From: Succinivibrio dextrinosolvens DSM 3072
Lineage (GTDB): Bacteria > Pseudomonadota > Gammaproteobacteria > Enterobacterales > Succinivibrionaceae
Assembly: GCF_900167015.1 (NCBI RefSeq)
Contig: NZ_FUXX01000004.1
Location: 1 to 64,000, forward strand
DNA: 64,000 nt
Direction: 5' to 3'
The notes under the pieces were generated by a model. The model saw only the letters and a program-made list of their open reading frames with translations, ran no database searches and had not been told where the DNA came from. Shown here piece by piece: positions 41,204 through 47,395 of this stretch. Made by a program: the position numbers and the translations under genes. Position 1 is the first letter of the stretch, and each line of letters begins with the position of its first letter.

Positions 41204-41280
41204 TGGTAGCTATGACTGGAATCGAACCAGTGACCTCAGCATTATGAGTGCCGCGCTCTAACCAACTGAGCTACATAGCC
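41204..41280 (-). tRNA. tRNA-Met (CAT), elongator, copy 2 of the duplication
   Basis: The cloverleaf folds in 77 bases with an encoded CCA. The anticodon loop is CTCATAA, and the T arm is ACTGG TTCGATT CCAGT. It resembles E. coli elongator tRNA-Met (GGCTA.GTAGCTCAGTTGGTTAGAGC). It lacks the C1:A72 mismatch of the initiator, but the acceptor ends in a G1:U72 wobble (GGCTATG / CATAGCT). Confidence 0.95.
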
Positions 41281-41286
41281 ACTGAA

Positions 41287-41362
41287 TGGCTGGGGTACTA
41301 GGATTCGAACCTAGGTAATGGCGGAATCAGAATCCGCTGCCGTACCACTTGGCGATACCCCA
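41287..41362 (-). tRNA. tRNA-Gln (CTG), copy 2 of the duplication
   Basis: Seventy-six bases including CCA. The acceptor is TGGGGTA / TACCCCA, the anticodon loop is TTCTGAT, and the T arm is CTAGG TTCGAAT CCTAG. The body is very close to E. coli glnV. Confidence 0.96.
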
Positions 41363-41398
41363 ACATGAGATAAGAATTAAGACACCTTTGAAGGTGAA

Positions 41399-41475
41399 TG
41401 GTAGCTATGACTGGAATCGAACCAGTGACCTCAGCATTATGAGTGCCGCGCTCTAACCAACTGAGCTACATAGCC
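41399..41475 (-). tRNA. tRNA-Met (CAT), elongator, copy 1 of the duplication
   Basis: Identical in sequence to the tRNA-Met at 41204-41280, with the same G1:U72 acceptor end. Confidence 0.95.
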
Positions 41476-41481
41476 ATTGAA

Positions 41482-41557
41482 TGGCTGGGGTACTAGGATT
41501 CGAACCTAGGTAATGGCGGAATCAGAATCCGCTGCCGTACCACTTGGCGATACCCCA
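41482..41557 (-). tRNA. tRNA-Gln (CTG), copy 1 of the duplication
   Basis: Identical in sequence to the tRNA-Gln at 41287-41362. Confidence 0.96.
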
Positions 41558-41580
41558 ACAGTGTGTTAAACAAATCCCTT

Positions 41581-41656
41581 TGGCAGGGGTACCTGGACTC
41601 GAACCAGGGAAATGGCGGGATCAAAACCCGCTGCCTTACCACTTGGCTATACCCCT
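41581..41656 (-). tRNA. tRNA-Gln (TTG)
   Basis: Seventy-six bases including CCA. The acceptor is AGGGGTA / TACCCCT (A1:U72), the anticodon loop is TTTTGAT, and the T arm is CCTGG TTCGAGT CCAGG. It is the first gene of the cluster, 39 bases downstream of a near-consensus promoter. Confidence 0.96.
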
Positions 41657-42024: not shown

Positions 42025-42879
42025 ATGATAAAAGAAAACGTCCTTGCCATCTGTTACGACTTTGATAGAACTCTAACTCCTTATGAAATGCAAGCACAGG
42101 GTTACATTCAGCAGCTAAATGAGAATGTTGATGAATTCTGGGCTCTATCATCAAAGATTGCTATAGAAAATCAGATGGACCCAAACCTTTCTTATATGTA
42201 TCTGATGCTTAACGGTGCCAAAGGCAAGTTTCAGGTAAAAAGAGAAAAGCTAATCGAATTCGGCTCTAAGGTAAAGCTATACAAAGGTGTATCAGACTGG
42301 TTTTCAAGAATAAATCAGTATGGAAAGAAAAAAGAAGTTAAGGTCGAGCACTATATTATTTCCTCTGGTCTAAAGGAGATGATAGAAGGAACAAAAATTG
42401 CCGACGAATTCAGAATGATCTATGCAAATTCATTTTTATATGACCATAACGGAGCAGCAGTTTGGCCAGCACAGAACATCAACTTCACAAACAAGACCCA
42501 GTTTCTTTTCAGAATATCCAAAGGTACTCTTGATGTAAATGATAATGATGTAAACCGTTACTATGAGCCGGAAAATATTAGGGTACCGTTCAATAATATT
42601 GTCTACATAGGAGACAGTCAGACAGATATTCCATGTATGAAGCTTGTAAATTCTCTCGGAGGACATTCTATCGGAGTCTACGACCCAACCAGTAACAACA
42701 AGGCAAGAGTCCACGAACTGATTATGGATAAGAGAATCAAGCACTTTGCAAAAGCTGATTATTCTAAGGGAAGTAAGCTTGATGAGCTGATGCACAACAT
42801 TATTGATTACACCTCAGCTTCCTACAAACTTAACCGTGATTACTGGGAGAATTTGGATGAGGCAGAGAATCTTGCCTAA
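42025..42879 (+). CDS. HAD-superfamily hydrolase
   Basis: The 284-residue protein has the HAD motifs in order: motif I DFDRTLTPYEM near residue 12-22 (nucleophile Asp and acid Asp), motif II Ser in YIISSGLKEMIEG, a Lys in FTNKTQFLF, and motif IV GDSQTDIPCMKLV. The large insert between motifs I and II (about 25-105) is a helical cap. The substrate is unknown; a phosphatase of the phosphoserine-phosphatase-like group is likely. An in-frame stop at 42001 excludes an upstream start, so the Shine-Dalgarno-hairpin-ATG arrangement in its leader is real. No partner gene adjoins it. Confidence 0.85.
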   Translation: MIKENVLAICYDFDRTLTPYEMQAQGYIQQLNENVDEFWALSSKIAIENQMDPNLSYMYLMLNGAKGKFQVKREKLIEFGSKVKLYKGVSDWFSRINQYGKKKEVKVEHYIISSGLKEMIEGTKIADEFRMIYANSFLYDHNGAAVWPAQNINFTNKTQFLFRISKGTLDVNDNDVNRYYEPENIRVPFNNIVYIGDSQTDIPCMKLVNSLGGHSIGVYDPTSNNKARVHELIMDKRIKHFAKADYSKGSKLDELMHNIIDYTSASYKLNRDYWENLDEAENLA

Positions 42880-42938
42880 TATTTTTCAAAAATTGCATAA
42901 TTCTGCAATTATACATTTGTAAAAATTTTACACAAAAG

Positions 42939-42967
42939 TTGCGATTTCTCGTTTATATCTACATAAT
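42939..42967 (+). promoter_or_regulatory. Promoter-like pair in the gene-free region
   Basis: TTGCGA (42939-42944), 17-bp spacer, CATAAT (42962-42967). It would drive transcription into the first RNA candidate from about 42974. It is one of two possible starts for that RNA. Confidence 0.4.
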
Positions 42968-43055
42968 TTCATGATAAAACAAAATGTTATTCAAAAGATT
43001 ATTATGTTTGCGATTTTTTCAAACAGAGATCAACTTTTTGCTCAAAATTTACAAA

Positions 43056-43257
43056 TATAATTAACACTGTAGCTTGTGAAATAAAGAATTTTGTCATCTA
43101 AGTATTCTCTAAGTTAGAGCTTCTAGAATAGATAATAGAAAAACGGAAGAGACAAAATGATTTCAAACTCTATAGTTTTAAATGATTTTGTTTTTTAACA
43201 AGAAAGAATCACATACCTCATCGCCTAGGTCCACACCTTTTGACCTAGGCATTTTTT
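43056..43257 (+). ncRNA. Candidate small RNA 1, terminator-ended
   Basis: A perfect minus-10 TATAAT (43056-43061) gives a start near 43069 and a transcript of about 190 bases. It ends in the strong terminator GCCTAGGTC / GACCTAGGC (43224-43232, 43243-43251) plus seven T. Inside, ATTTTGTC (43088-43095) can pair with GACAAAAT (43151-43158), enclosing TATTCT / AGAATA. Just before the terminator stem is CACATACCTCATCGCCT, also found in candidate 2. A 13-codon mini-ORF (43157-43198) lies between. No known RNA family is recognised; it is not 6S, tmRNA, RNase P or SRP RNA by eye. Confidence 0.5.
43157..43198 (+). CDS. Possible 13-residue leader peptide in small RNA 1
   Basis: ATG at 43157 after GGAAGAG gives MISNSIVLNDFVF and a TAA stop. 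The start codon overlaps the 3' arm of the long-range stem GACAAAAT, so it could be sequestered. There is no structural gene after the terminator that it would obviously regulate, and such short frames arise by chance. Confidence 0.2.
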   Translation: MISNSIVLNDFVF

Positions 43258-43500
43258 TGTCCAATAAATAAAAAAATCTTTATATCTCAATAAACTAAGT
43301 GTCAACTAAGAAAAACAATCTATCATGTATCCTGCATAGACGATATTAGACTAGTTAAAACTACGACTAATGTTCAAGCAATTTATTGGAAGATTTTCCG
43401 AACTCATCGATTAAGTAACACTTGATGTTTTACTAACGTTTTCACAATTACACATACCTAAATCGCCTCTGACTTTTTCCTTTGTCAGAGGTTTTTTTTT
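43257..43500 (+). ncRNA. Candidate small RNA 2, terminator-ended
   Basis: The promoter-like pair TTGTCC (43257-43262), 17-bp spacer, TTATAT (43280-43285) gives a start near 43292 and about 205 bases of RNA. It ends in CCTCTGAC / GTCAGAGG plus nine T (about 43466-43500). A hairpin with arms ATTAG / CTAAT and inner TAGTT / AACTA lies near 43345-43372. CACATACCTAAATCGCCT directly precedes and enters the terminator stem, matching candidate 1. The long T runs suit Hfq-dependent RNAs. No open frame of note. Confidence 0.5.
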
Positions 43501-43624
43501 ATGTTTTTCTACGTTAAAAAAACAATGAAGAAATTCCGTAAAATTATTTTTAATATTTTTGAAATTAATCACAAAATAATATAGTATTAATTGTCCCTAA
43601 AACACGAAAAAAATGCCCTTTTTC

Positions 43625-43633
43625 TGTTATAAT
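43625..43633 (+). promoter_or_regulatory. Extended minus-10 promoter of the Fic module
   Basis: TGTTATAAT is an exact extended minus-10, with no clear minus-35. It lies 30 bases before the antitoxin ATG. Confidence 0.6.
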
Positions 43634-43662
43634 TAAATTGGTGTGATTACTACGGAGATCGT

Positions 43663-43821
43663 ATGTTGCTAGATGAAGTAAAAGCTACTTTAGCAATGGA
43701 AAATTTATATCTGTCAGAAGAGCAAGAAAAGCTATTACAAAGCTATGCTGATGGAGAAATTTCTTTTAAAGAATTTCAAGAACAGATATTAAAGATAACT
43801 GAAGATAACAAGGTAGCTTGA
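43663..43821 (+). CDS. Fic antitoxin, VbhA-like (52 residues)
   Basis: This small frame starts at ATG 43663 with GGAGA upstream. Residues 9-14, TLAMEN, fit the [S/T]xxxE[G/N] inhibitory motif. In class I Fic antitoxins this places a Glu into the toxin's ATP site. The remainder (SEEQEKLLQSYADGEISFKEFQEQILKIT) has the helical layout of the VbhA family. The Fic toxin starts 3 bases after its stop, so the two form a toxin-antitoxin operon with the antitoxin first and probably translational coupling. Confidence 0.82.
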   Translation: MLLDEVKATLAMENLYLSEEQEKLLQSYADGEISFKEFQEQILKITEDNKVA

Positions 43822-43824
43822 ATT

Positions 43825-44421
43825 TTGGAAGCCTCGACTTTCGATAAAGTCTATTGTTATCCAGGTACTGAAGTTTTAATCAATAACTTCAATGAGCATG
43901 ATCCTAGAGTGCTTTCTCAATATGAAAGAATGTACACTGGAGCAAGGATCATCGATCTATTTAAAAAGCCTATTCAGGGCAAATTTGATCTATCCCACTT
44001 AAAGGCAATTCATAAATATATCTTTCAGGATATTTACCCTTGGGCGGGTGAACTGCGCCTGGTTAATATTTCCAAGGAAATTCTTTTCTGTGATGCTCAG
44101 TTTATCGAGAAAACCATTAGCAAAGTTTTCGATAAGCTTGCACAGGAGAATTATCTGAGAGACTGTAGCGAAAAGAATATTGCTGAAAAAGCTGCTTATT
44201 ATCTTGGAGAAATAAACGCCGTACATCCGTTCAGAGAAGGAAATGGAAGAGCTCAGCGAGAGTTCGTAAGAGAATTACTTCTCCCTCTTGGATTTAAGGT
44301 TGATTATTCTTTATGTGATCCTAAGATGATGCTTTATGCATCAATTAATGCATTTGCCAGTGATTATGAACTAATGACCGAGTTATTTGATAAATGCATT
44401 ATTGCAAAACCTCAAAATTAA
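43825..44421 (+). CDS. Fic-domain toxin (adenylyltransferase, VbhT/FicT type)
   Basis: Fic enzymes transfer AMP from ATP to hydroxyl side chains. Known FicT toxins modify DNA gyrase and topoisomerase IV, and that target is inferred here. The 198-residue protein has the complete active site HPFREGNGRAQR (His134 to Arg145), the flap KEILFCDAQFIEKTI (about 84-98), and the N-terminal core YPGTEVLINNFNEHDPRVLSQYERMYTGARI. It starts at TTG 43825. All catalytic residues are intact, so the toxin should be active and in need of the antitoxin. It ends 21 bases before miaB, in the same direction, with no terminator between. Confidence 0.92.
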   Translation: MEASTFDKVYCYPGTEVLINNFNEHDPRVLSQYERMYTGARIIDLFKKPIQGKFDLSHLKAIHKYIFQDIYPWAGELRLVNISKEILFCDAQFIEKTISKVFDKLAQENYLRDCSEKNIAEKAAYYLGEINAVHPFREGNGRAQREFVRELLLPLGFKVDYSLCDPKMMLYASINAFASDYELMTELFDKCIIAKPQN

Positions 44422-44442
44422 AATAACTAATTAATAAAAATC

Positions 44443-45807
44443 ATGACTACTATTCAAACCACCTTATCTGCGCCAAAACTTCAATTAGGTTCTTTCTATG
44501 TACACGTCTGGGGATGCCAAATGAATGTATATGACGGAGGAAGAATCAGAGATTTAATGACAGCTTCTGGTTTTGCAGAATCTTCTACCCCAAAAGGGGC
44601 AAATATTATAATTCTTGTAACCTGTGCAGTTAGAGCAAAGGCAGAAGATAAGGTATTCAACCAGATTGCATCCTGGAGACATACAGGTGAAATCAATAAC
44701 GACACCATTATTGCCCTTGGAGGATGTGTTGGAGCCGAGCTTGCAGAACAGATTCTTGATCTGGATAAGAGCATCAATATTATTTTCGGACCAAGAACAA
44801 TCCACAGACTGCCTAAGATGGTTGGCGAATTCATTGCTTCAGGAAAACCAGTAGTAGACGTAACCGCTGATGCCATCGACAAGTTTGACTATCTACCAGA
44901 AGCGGGAGCAGTAGGTCCTTCAGCATTCGTAACCATTATGGAAGGATGCTCTAACAAATGCACATACTGCATTGTTCCTTACACCCGTGGAGAGGAACAG
45001 TCCAGACCAGTTCAGGATATCATTGATGAGTGTGTGGGACATATTGCAAACGGAGTTAAGGAAATTCATCTTTTAGGACAGAACGTTAACTCCTATCATG
45101 GACTAAATACTGATGGCTCCGACTGCAAATTCTCTACCCTTCTATATGAAATTGCCGCTATTCCAGGAGTTGAGAGAATCAGATTCACTACCTCAAATCC
45201 TATGGACTTTACAGATGACATTATTGAGGCAATCAAGGATCTGCCTGTAATCTCAGACGGTATTCATGTACCTATTCAGGCTGGTTCAGATAGAATTTTA
45301 GAGGCTATGCACAGAAGATATACAGCAAAACAGTATGTTGAGCTGATAAAAAAGATTAGAGCCGCACGTCCAACTGTACATATATCCTCTGATTTCATTG
45401 TTGGATTCCCAGGTGAAACCGATGAAGACTTCAATGAAACCATGAAAATTGTAAACGAAGTAAAATTCGATCAGAGTTTCTCTTTTGTTTATTCAATAAG
45501 ACCAGGAACCCCTGCTGCTACACTTGAGGATCCAGTTTCAAAGGAAACCAAGATGCAGAGACTTTATATTCTTCAGCAGAGACTTGAAGAACTGGCATCT
45601 GAATATACACAGGCATTTGTCGGAACAACCCAGAGATGCCTTGTAGAGGGAACCTCAAGAAAAGATGAGAATGAACTCAAGAGCAGAGCATCCTCAGGAA
45701 GAATTGTAGTATTCAAGGGACCTCTATCTCTTGTAGGACAGATGGTTGATGTAAAGATCACTTCTGTTGCAGCTCATACACTTAAGGGTGAGCTGGTAAC
45801 TAAGTAA
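44443..45807 (+). CDS. miaB: tRNA-2-methylthio-N6-dimethylallyladenosine synthase MiaB
   Basis: MiaB adds the methylthio group at A37 of tRNAs that read UNN codons. The 454-residue protein has the N-terminal domain with three cluster cysteines (WGCQMNVYDGGRI, VTCAVRAKAEDK, LGGCVGAE), the radical-SAM site EGCSNKCTYCIVPYTRGEE, and a C-terminal TRAM domain (from about 385). It heads the miaB-ybeZ-ybeY-corC-lnt run. The Fic module lies just upstream and may feed transcription into it. Confidence 0.97.
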   Translation: MTTIQTTLSAPKLQLGSFYVHVWGCQMNVYDGGRIRDLMTASGFAESSTPKGANIIILVTCAVRAKAEDKVFNQIASWRHTGEINNDTIIALGGCVGAELAEQILDLDKSINIIFGPRTIHRLPKMVGEFIASGKPVVDVTADAIDKFDYLPEAGAVGPSAFVTIMEGCSNKCTYCIVPYTRGEEQSRPVQDIIDECVGHIANGVKEIHLLGQNVNSYHGLNTDGSDCKFSTLLYEIAAIPGVERIRFTTSNPMDFTDDIIEAIKDLPVISDGIHVPIQAGSDRILEAMHRRYTAKQYVELIKKIRAARPTVHISSDFIVGFPGETDEDFNETMKIVNEVKFDQSFSFVYSIRPGTPAATLEDPVSKETKMQRLYILQQRLEELASEYTQAFVGTTQRCLVEGTSRKDENELKSRASSGRIVVFKGPLSLVGQMVDVKITSVAAHTLKGELVTK

Positions 45808-45816
45808 GGCATTGTG

Positions 45817-46935
45817 ATGAACTCAATTACACAAGATTTTGTTTTAGATCCTGATGACAAAAATAGAATTGCCTATCTTGTAGGACCTGAAGACGAAAAT
45901 TTAAAACAGATAGAAAAAAGACTAGGCGTAAAGATCAGTTATTCCGGAGCTCATTTTCATCTGGAAGGTAAAGCCGGCCATGTGAAAAAAGCATACAAGC
46001 TGATTAAGTCTCTATATATTGATACTACTCCTATCAAAGGCTCAAAGAAGCCTTCTGAAGTTACACCTGATATGGTTCATCTTGCTATTACAGAGACAAC
46101 CTCTTTAGAGCAGGACAACACAGATTATTCTTTAGACCATGAAAAAGGATCTATTGATTCACTGTATGCAAAGGCCAATAACTTTAAGACAAAGCGTGGC
46201 TTTATTAAAGCAAGAACCTCAAATCAGTCAGACTATATCAACAAGATAGTATCTCACGATGTGAGCTTCGGTATCGGTCCTGCCGGAACAGGAAAAACCT
46301 TTCTGGCTGTAGCTGCCGCTGTTGATGCACTTGAGAGAAATGAAATCAGACGTATCATTCTGACAAGACCAGCTATTGAGGCAGGAGAAAAGCTTGGATT
46401 CCTGCCAGGAGATCTTTCTCAGAAAGTTGATCCTTATCTAAGACCTCTTTACGATGCTCTTTTTGAGATGCTTGGTTTTGAGAAAGTTGAGAAACTGATC
46501 GAAAAACAGATTATTGAAATTGCTCCATTGGCATACATGAGAGGAAGAACCCTAAACGATTCTTTTATAATTCTAGATGAGGCTCAGAATACTACAGTAG
46601 AACAGATGAAAATGTTCCTGACACGTATCGGCTTTAACTCTCATGCAGTCATCACCGGAGATCCAAGTCAGATTGACCTTCCTAGAAATGTAAGATCTGG
46701 ATTAAAGCATGCTATTGAAGTTCTAAAGTCTGTTGAGGAGATTGGTTTTACATTCTTCGAGTCATCAGATGTTGTAAGACATCCTGTAGTAGCAGCCATT
46801 GTTAATGCCTATGATGAGTACGAGAAAACTCATGACAGTTCTCATCAGCAGTATTCAGGCTATAAAAACAGTAAAACAGAGTTAACCGGAACAGAACGTT
46901 CCGAAAAAGAGGTAGCTAATGAAAGTAATAATTGA
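45817..46935 (+). CDS. ybeZ: PhoH-like ATPase YbeZ
   Basis: YbeZ is a PhoH-family nucleotide-binding protein that partners with the endoribonuclease YbeY in rRNA processing. The protein has an N-terminal KH-like region (about 15-65), Walker [18 protein letters not shown] near 155, [32 protein letters not shown], and Walker [26 protein letters not shown] start at ATG 45817, with AAGG 7 bases away, rather than the GTG one codon before. It overlaps ybeY by 17 bases. Confidence 0.94.
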
Positions 46936-47395
46936 TCTGCAGATTGCAACAGATGAGGCACTGGAGAGCTATCCTTCTCTTGAAACCATGACTAAATGGG
47001 CAACTGTTGCTCTTAAAACAGGTGGCAGAACAAATGACAGCGAAATTACCATACGTATGGTAGATTCAAAAGAGATTCATGAGCTGAATGCCACATACAG
47101 ACATGTAGACAGACCAACCAATATTCTTTCATTCCCTTTTGAATTACCAGAGGGAATAGAAGATCTGCCTCTGTTAGGAGATCTGGTCGTATGCAAAGAA
47201 GTTTTAGAAAGAGAATGCAAGGAGCAGAACAAAACTCTTGAGGAACATTTTGCTCATCTGATTGTTCACGGCTGTCTGCATCTTTTAGGCTATGACCACA
47301 TTGAAGAAGAAGATGCCAAGGAAATGGAGCCTCTAGAGGTTAAGGCTATGGCTGAACTTGGCTATGAAAATCCTTATAAAGATGATGAGTTCTAA
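46919..47395 (+). CDS. ybeY: Endoribonuclease/rRNA maturation factor YbeY
   Basis: YbeY takes part in 16S rRNA 3' maturation and 70S quality control. The 158-residue protein has the metal site H-x3-H-x5-H at His117, His121 and His127 ([14 protein letters not shown]), and the upstream block [18 protein letters not shown]. Its start lies inside ybeZ. Confidence 0.96.

Follow-up and report, generated by a model that had tools for sequence, protein, structure and literature searches.

The closest described counterpart of the locus reported here is the OmrA/OmrB pair of Escherichia coli, which passages in PMC4211561 and PMC7602753 describe as tandem sibling small RNAs (sRNAs) under EnvZ/OmpR, and for which feedback on ompR has been reported. 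AbcR1/AbcR2 and PrrF1/PrrF2, which belong to other bacteria, are likewise treated in part of PMC4211561 as sibling sRNAs standing in tandem in some species. Systems of the PmrA or QseB type are also said to act on sRNAs, since a table in PMC7602753 places RsmY under PmrA/PmrB and GlmY under QseC/QseB; RsmY is tabled there as sequestering a protein, unlike the pair proposed below. For Glaesserella parasuis, a passage in PMC10714720 gives the QseB site as CTTAA-N4-CTTAG. Among open-licence papers on Succinivibrio or Succinivibrionaceae, none was evidently about sRNAs, Hfq or response-regulator regulons. AbcR1/AbcR2 and PrrF1/PrrF2 are under other regulators, and GlmY is a different RNA.

We analysed a window of 64,000 nucleotides from the gut and rumen bacterium Succinivibrio dextrinosolvens DSM 3072 (genome G000), in which a gene-free stretch is a real, conserved feature and most likely a new sRNA family of a known kind. 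We assign a probability of roughly three in four to the reading that its two units are tandem sibling trans-acting sRNAs under a PmrA/QseB-like regulator, with a seed that would block target messages. The likeness to OmrA/OmrB, as far as the above passages describe that pair, lies in the tandem genes, the shared ends with different middles, the OmpR-family regulator and the occurrence of one or two copies among relatives. According to the same passages, OmrA and OmrB have both ends, 5' and 3', in common and use the 5' end for pairing, whereas the block shared by the Succinivibrio units lies beside the terminator; the predicted 5' parts of the latter, with starts themselves predicted, differ between the units, unlike the near-identical pairing 5' ends of OmrA/OmrB, and the regulator is PmrA/QseB-like rather than OmpR. 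The Succinivibrio box, CTAAGT-N5-CTAAG, is similar in kind to the Glaesserella site and different in sequence. By analogy, the pair would work like OmrA/OmrB while standing outside that family.

The first inspection of this DNA, hereafter the initial annotation, had recognised no known RNA family, and Rfam agreed: at the gathering score, only five tRNAs were found in the whole window. The best Rfam match at the locus, SQ1002, reached 25.7 bits against a gathering score of 128 (E 0.0023), and Spot 42 reached 17.1 bits against 80; we take both as chance because the sequence is A+U-rich and carries a terminator. OmrA/OmrB were absent from the matches at the gathering score and from the nine matches at E up to 10 on 42880-43670; AbcR1/AbcR2 and PrrF1/PrrF2 likewise gave no Rfam match to the units. 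In a plasmid collection searched by blastn with words of 11, no match to the locus was found. On the minus strand at 41204-41656, the window also holds two repeated tRNA-Met/tRNA-Gln pairs and one extra tRNA-Gln.

Anatomy of the two units

The gene-free stretch, put at about 780 bases in the initial annotation, measures 783 bases (42880-43662) in the list of open reading frames (ORFs) of the window, and lies between a HAD-family ORF and a 52-aa ORF. The two strong hairpins claimed for it, followed by 7 and 9 T, both fold. In each unit, a conserved direct repeat CTAAGT-N5-CTAAG[TA], which had been overlooked, is followed after 9 nt by a -10 box (43098-43129 and 43295-43326). These elements replace the promoters originally proposed, and the RNAs predicted from them are about 123 and 168 nt long instead of 190-210 nt. 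The features are as follows.

42025-42879, + strand: upstream neighbour, HAD-family gene; conserved flank outside the RNAs, the same neighbour being present in loci L194 and L199
43098-43114, + strand: unit 1 response-regulator box CTAAGT-N5-CTAAGT (11-bp direct repeat), at the same place in all five tandem genomes
43124-43129, + strand: unit 1 putative -10 element TAGAAT (TAAAAT in two relatives), 9 nt past the second half-site, from conservation
43136-43258, + strand: unit 1 sRNA, predicted at about 123 nt with a predicted start, from identity and covariance model
43147-43196, + strand: unit 1 central A+U-rich hairpin, from the fold; sequence largely kept in the five-species alignment
43208-43223, + strand: unit 1 16-nt stretch complementary to the ribosome-binding site of a 91-aa gene, from target comparison
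43210-43218, + strand: unit 1 seed CACAUACCU, conserved and unpaired in the fold
43223-43258, + strand: unit 1 intrinsic terminator, from the fold
43295-43311, + strand: unit 2 response-regulator box CTAAGT-N5-CTAAGA, from conservation
43321-43326, + strand: unit 2 putative -10 element TATCAT, 9 nt past the second half-site, from conservation
43333-43500, + strand: unit 2 sRNA, predicted at about 168 nt with a predicted start, from identity and covariance model
43380-43440, + strand: unit 2 core, identity 0.99 over five species
43451-43459, + strand: unit 2 seed CACAUACCU, conserved and unpaired in the fold
43465-43500, + strand: unit 2 intrinsic terminator, from the fold; stem changes relative to single-copy relatives preserve pairing
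43663-43821, + strand: downstream neighbour, 52-aa ORF preceding the Fic gene; no Pfam match
43825-44421, + strand: downstream neighbour, Fic-domain protein; best NCBIfam model VbhT, 160 bits against a cut-off of 800

The unit 1 terminator is built as GCCTAGGTC-10 nt-GACCTAGGC (43223-43250), followed by an A and 7 T (43252-43258), and that of unit 2 as GCCTCTGAC-10 nt-GTCAGAGGT (43465-43492), with 9 T at 43492-43500. A terminator scan of the window, which allows loops of 3-8 nt, called neither of them; both loops are 10 nt. The 3' ends fold at -15.9 (unit 1) and -14.8 kcal/mol (unit 2) with all nine seed bases unpaired in both, and the fold z-scores are -4.0 for 43090-43258 and -2.6 for 43328-43500. 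Each unit, as read from its sequence, thus has its own predicted promoter and its own intrinsic terminator in an intergenic region.

The motif said to be shared beside the terminators, CACATACCT..ATCGCCT, occurs as CACATACCT-C-ATCGCCT in unit 1 (43210-43226, gap of 1 nt) and as CACATACCT-AA-ATCGCCT in unit 2 (43451-43468, gap of 2 nt). Searched as CACATACCTN{1,3}ATCGCCT, it was found in the organism's own genome at these two units only, and the reversed control gave 0. When the gap was fixed at 2 nt, the search returned unit 2 together with five places carrying 1-2 mismatches, which we take as chance; unit 1 was missed because of its 1-nt gap.

Conservation in the genus

When 60 genomes were searched by DNA similarity, nearly all of the stretch was recovered in the organism's own genome and in four others of the genus, 80-92% identical, so that both units are kept in 5 of the 19 Succinivibrio genomes (the tandem genomes G000, G003, G004, G010 and G014). 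Each of these has the two-block motif at two places, and the other 14 genomes of the genus lack it. The four relatives, found by similarity of the whole stretch and without use of the motif, keep both blocks; the reading of the units as paralogous trans-acting sRNAs thereby withstands the check on conservation set for it in the initial annotation. Over the five species, pairwise identity averages 0.95 in the unit 1 RNA and 0.89 in the unit 2 RNA; the outer flanks reach 0.79 and 0.78, and the stretch between the units 0.59. The 33-bp promoter stretches stand at 0.89 for unit 1 and at 0.76 for unit 2, the latter no higher than the flanks because the spacers vary.

Six more genomes of the genus (G001, G002, G005, G009, G012 and G015) carry one such RNA. 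These single-copy RNAs were found with the pattern ACATACCTN{12,42}TTTTTT over the 19 genomes, in a search on ACATACCT, and their seed identity is by construction because the pattern contained the seed; only the five tandem genomes and the loci of the Fic gene are independent of the seed-based search. The invariance of CACATACCT in all 16 aligned 3' ends (five of unit 1, five of unit 2 and six single) is to be read in this light: the ten tandem rows were not picked by the seed, and they come from five related species, with the five unit 1 rows nearly alike. Of the conserved block originally proposed, the part that stands as common to the tandem units and all single-copy relatives is CACATACCT, whereas the full CACATACCT..ATCGCCT is missing from the single-copy relatives. 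The ancestor probably had one RNA at the locus, doubled in the clade of the window; doubling rather than loss would explain the tandem and single copies. In G015, a second regulator box lies between the HAD gene and the sRNA box (L199, 3000-3031), followed by a hairpin, recognised by eye, that carries no seed; these may be a decayed or different second RNA.

The terminator stem was examined in eight rows (five single and three of unit 2), where 98.4% of the cells are paired; a terminator must pair anyway. Nine cells are changed on both sides, which 0 of 500 shuffles reached, and the covariation score is 0.406 against 0.185, again with 0 of 500 shuffles reaching 0.406. Counted by pairs, three of the eight are changed on both sides, which 288 of 500 shuffles matched, and the changes represent few events because they separate unit 2 from the rest. 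A covariance search, suggested in the initial annotation together with a synteny search, bore out the family: the model, built from these eight rows with unit 1 and G005 left out, matched 11 of the 19 genomes of the genus at E < 1e-6 and none of 37 other genomes of the family, among which the best E was 0.037. Eight of the 11 matched genomes gave rows to the model, and G003, G005 and G010 gave none. Unit 1, absent from the model, was matched in all five tandem genomes (E 2.0e-5 to 4.4e-5); the match of unit 2 (E 6.9e-13) concerns a sequence that is part of the model. This search of more than 40 genomes used stricter filters, with which weak members may be missed.

A regulator box and a probable PmrA/QseB-like regulon

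The pattern CTAAGTN5CTAAGN10TANNNT has 7, 7, 8, 4 and 8 matches in G000, G014, G004, G003 and G010, respectively (34 in total), against 0 for the reversed pattern. In G000, the five matches other than the two units precede an 87-aa His-rich gene, a YgiW-like (BOF) gene, a D/H/K-rich gene, macAB and zapG-degQ. The same genes were confirmed by tblastn at ten further matches: the ygiW-like gene in G003, G004 and G010, macA in G004, G010 and G014, zapG in G003, the D/H/K-rich gene in G010 and G014, and the His-rich gene in G010. The box also precedes the His-rich gene in G014, as read at the locus, and the matches beyond the confirmed and read loci were assigned by 32-mer likeness. Judging from N-termini read by eye, the His-rich and D/H/K-rich proteins appear to be secreted. 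A box before lpxC, found in G004 only, may be chance. Among the six single-copy RNAs, the box has the form CTAAG[TG]-N5-CTAAGT in four, with the first half altered in G012 (ATAAGT) and G005 (CTAATT), and its distance to the -10 box is 9 nt in all six.

One match to the OmpR-family DNA-binding domain was found in each of the five tandem genomes, including the one-contig genome G014; in G000, a draft of 104 contigs with 97% completeness, it lies on the contig of the window (C30:100457). This regulator scores 223 bits with the PmrA model (cut-off 330) and 191 with the QseB model (cut-off 345), and we term it PmrA/QseB-like because neither NCBIfam equivalog cut-off is reached. CpxR was also considered, on account of degQ and ygiW, and was set aside with 117 bits for its model against 223 for PmrA. 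A QseC-like kinase adjoins the regulator gene (161 bits, cut-off 475). The regulator gene itself is preceded by CTAAAT-N5-CTAAGT-N9-CATAAT, identical in all five tandem genomes, so that the direct-repeat box at fixed spacing is found also before the regulator gene, with CTAAAT as its first half. With relaxed patterns, 11 of 17 regulator orthologues (at least 62% identity) have a box within 300 nt upstream, once at -237, and none was found within that distance in G001, G007, G012, G015, G016 and G018, of which G001, G012 and G015 have the RNA; two further regulator loci gave no readable regulator frame. That both RNAs belong to a PmrA/QseB-like regulon is well supported by these comparisons, and we infer that the regulator encoded on the contig of the window would drive both. 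Feedback of the RNAs on the regulator's own mRNA found no support, the pairing being matched by 20 of 200 shuffles for unit 1 and 25 of 200 for unit 2.

The proposed seed, its candidate targets and rival readings

The initial annotation had further proposed that target sites complementary to the shared block can span a Shine-Dalgarno sequence and a start codon. A conserved seed complement, AGGTATGTG, does cover one Shine-Dalgarno sequence, whereas no general excess is seen: AGGTATGTG occurs at 67 places in the five genomes against 75 for the reversed word. Twenty-two of the 67 are the RNAs themselves or other seed-terminator endings; 65 were inspected in context, the remaining two being units 1 and 2 of G010. 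Among the 58 distinct contexts, the 16-nt matches to unit 1, with seed-terminator endings excluded, form three independent groups. The first lies on the ribosome-binding site of a 91-aa gene (G000, G003, G004 and G014), the second in codons 11-16 of a HIT-domain gene of 143 aa (G010 and G014) and the third in the leader of a flavodoxin gene (G004).

The 91-aa gene is one good candidate target of unit 1, judging from complementarity. It was found in 4 of the 19 genomes of the genus, with a perfect 16-nt site in all four, and was not found in the tandem genome G010; because of this restricted occurrence, it cannot be what has kept the seed elsewhere. Its start codon is assumed because the frame stays open further upstream in G004 and G014, and its protein has no Pfam or NCBIfam match. 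The duplex of its leader with unit 1 reaches -27.3 kcal/mol (z -7.1, 0 of 200 shuffles) and that with unit 2 reaches -18.8 kcal/mol (0 of 200). Among the nine leaders tested, good pairing is confined to this one; the eight others are matched by 19 of 200 shuffles at best. Comparison and fold together thus reveal a conserved, unpaired seed complementary to a translation-initiation region of an mRNA. In G004 (L154), the 91-aa gene is followed by a gene for a CesT-type chaperone (PF05932). We do not claim as a target the 342-aa gene of G010 (L095) and G014 (L146), where AGGTATGTG is present in the leader and the pairing spans 11 nt only. This gene has a weak, below-cut-off match to the ADP-ribosylating toxin domain PF01375 (20.1 bits), and effector injection may occur in some of these bacteria.

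The seed also stands at other transcript ends, which the initial annotation had missed. In the five tandem genomes, CACATACCT before a strong terminator is found downstream of an aminotransferase gene in all five (L134, L093, L099, L141 and L159), in an intergenic unit 190-300 nt after a tRNA-Thr gene in four (L200 on C33 of G000, L100 in G010, L147 in G014 and L155 in G004), after an hflC-like gene in two (L071 and L094) and after an HU gene in one (G004). In the tRNA-Thr-side unit, about 16 nt separate a TATAAT-like sequence from the seed; this unit and the HU-side unit would yield RNAs of about 55 nt, and the hflC-like and aminotransferase endings are possible 3'-UTR-derived RNAs. One more such ending is present in G011 (L294). 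The covariance model touched several of these places among its 14 matches at E 0.0048-0.096: of the ten inspected, six are seedless terminators, L293 has neither seed nor terminator, L295 has the seed only, and L294 and L308 (G004) have both; of the remaining four, L310, a place on C88 of G000 and L311 lie opposite candidate targets or at the aminotransferase end, and the fourth lies opposite the flavodoxin leader of G004.

Such recurrence would also be expected if CACAUACCU, before the terminators of several transcripts of the genus, were bound by a protein or acted as a signal for processing or stability, and were no pairing seed. Of 59 distinct seed contexts, 19 have a strong terminator within 20 nt; they fall into six groups, which include the two units and the aminotransferase and hflC-like ends. 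Among random positions of the same loci, 67 of 7560 have one. These counts come from the stricter of two tests, used because the looser one was positive at 328 of 2520 random positions. In the hflC-like ending, moreover, six of the nine seed bases are inside the stem. What makes this reading unlikely is that the 16-nt complement of unit 1 lies on the ribosome-binding site in four genomes and at two other independent places, and that CATC, required for pairing with GATGAGG, follows the seed in unit 1 and in four of the six single-copy RNAs.

The position of the RNAs bears on whether they would instead be a cis-acting leader or attenuator of the Fic operon. The single RNA lies directly upstream of the 52-aa ORF and the Fic gene in G002, G005, G012 and G015, and a search with the Fic protein, which makes no use of the seed, agreed: it gave 71 loci, and the best ten (L205-L214, 69-98% identical) have seed and box upstream of Fic in eight cases. 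L207 (RUG171) keeps HAD and Fic without seed, box or recognisable unit, and in L214 (S. faecicola) the RNA is found at another place of the contig that carries Fic; in the other 61 loci, one seed-like match and no box were found. Against a leader, both units end at terminators of their own, and 3' of both follows a TATAAT-bearing stretch, CTTTTTCTGTTATAATTAA, that is the same in all five tandem genomes; another ORF intervenes between the RNA and the 52-aa ORF/Fic pair in G001; in G009, if that record is rightly identified, RNA and Fic are about 9 kb apart; and pairing with the leader of the 52-aa ORF was equalled by 90 and 46 of 200 shuffles. We regard a Fic leader as very improbable. The 52-aa ORF is taken as a VbhA-like antitoxin, judged by position alone. 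The order of this ORF, Fic and three further genes (window 43663-47395 and L196-L199) recurs across several Succinivibrio genomes; the three genes are presumably MiaB-, PhoH- and YbeY-like.

A coding function, with small proteins of 9-13 aa from unit 1 and 14 aa from unit 2, is hardly credible: unit 1 has GGAAGAG 5 nt before an ATG and unit 2 a 14-codon frame M-[FI]-[KQ]-QFIGRFSELID, each in all five genomes, against which the unit 1 frame varies (13, 13, 9, 9 and 9 aa) with differing ends, that of unit 2 has no evident Shine-Dalgarno sequence and the conserved core extends past its stop, and neither frame occurs in the six single-copy RNAs, two of which are without any frame of at least 9 aa.

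The anatomy, the conservation, the box with its spacing, the near-identical box before the regulator gene and the complementarity on which the reading as tandem trans-acting sRNAs rests are properties of the sequences themselves. From them we infer a course of events comprising transcription, regulator binding, Hfq dependence, repression and an inducing signal. The kinase would sense a signal, perhaps metal or envelope stress, as one may guess from the regulon, and the regulator would bind the 11-bp direct repeat, which would replace a -35 box, so that both RNAs would be made, each starting about 7 nt past its -10 box and ending at its own intrinsic terminator. Hfq could hold the oligo-U tail; two Hfq-family matches are present in the genome, one near hflKC and one at G000:C39:37433-37618 (open frame of 152 aa). 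The unpaired CACAUACCU beside the terminator would then serve as the seed, pairing with AGGUAUGUG in messages and blocking ribosome entry. For unit 1, the pairing would extend over 16 nt across the Shine-Dalgarno sequence of the 91-aa gene, so that its translation would be blocked while the regulon is on, and the core of unit 2 may add targets of its own.

We also suggest, tentatively, that the one 9-nt seed CACAUACCU on several unrelated terminators, those of the regulator-driven tandem siblings, of the minimal RNAs of about 55 nt, which would consist of hardly anything beyond seed and terminator behind a TATAAT-like box, and of mRNA 3' ends, could form one pairing code through which several inputs act on the same messages, evolution keeping the seed and replacing the rest. 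If the reading as regulated tandem sRNAs is true, it predicts a Succinivibrio sRNA family tied to a defined two-component regulon with a defined box. Because the tandem clade shows one OmpR-family regulator and one conserved candidate target, the regulator, the RNA and the target would be directly testable, and the recurring seed-terminator ending would be an example of how a single seed comes to be shared by several RNAs.
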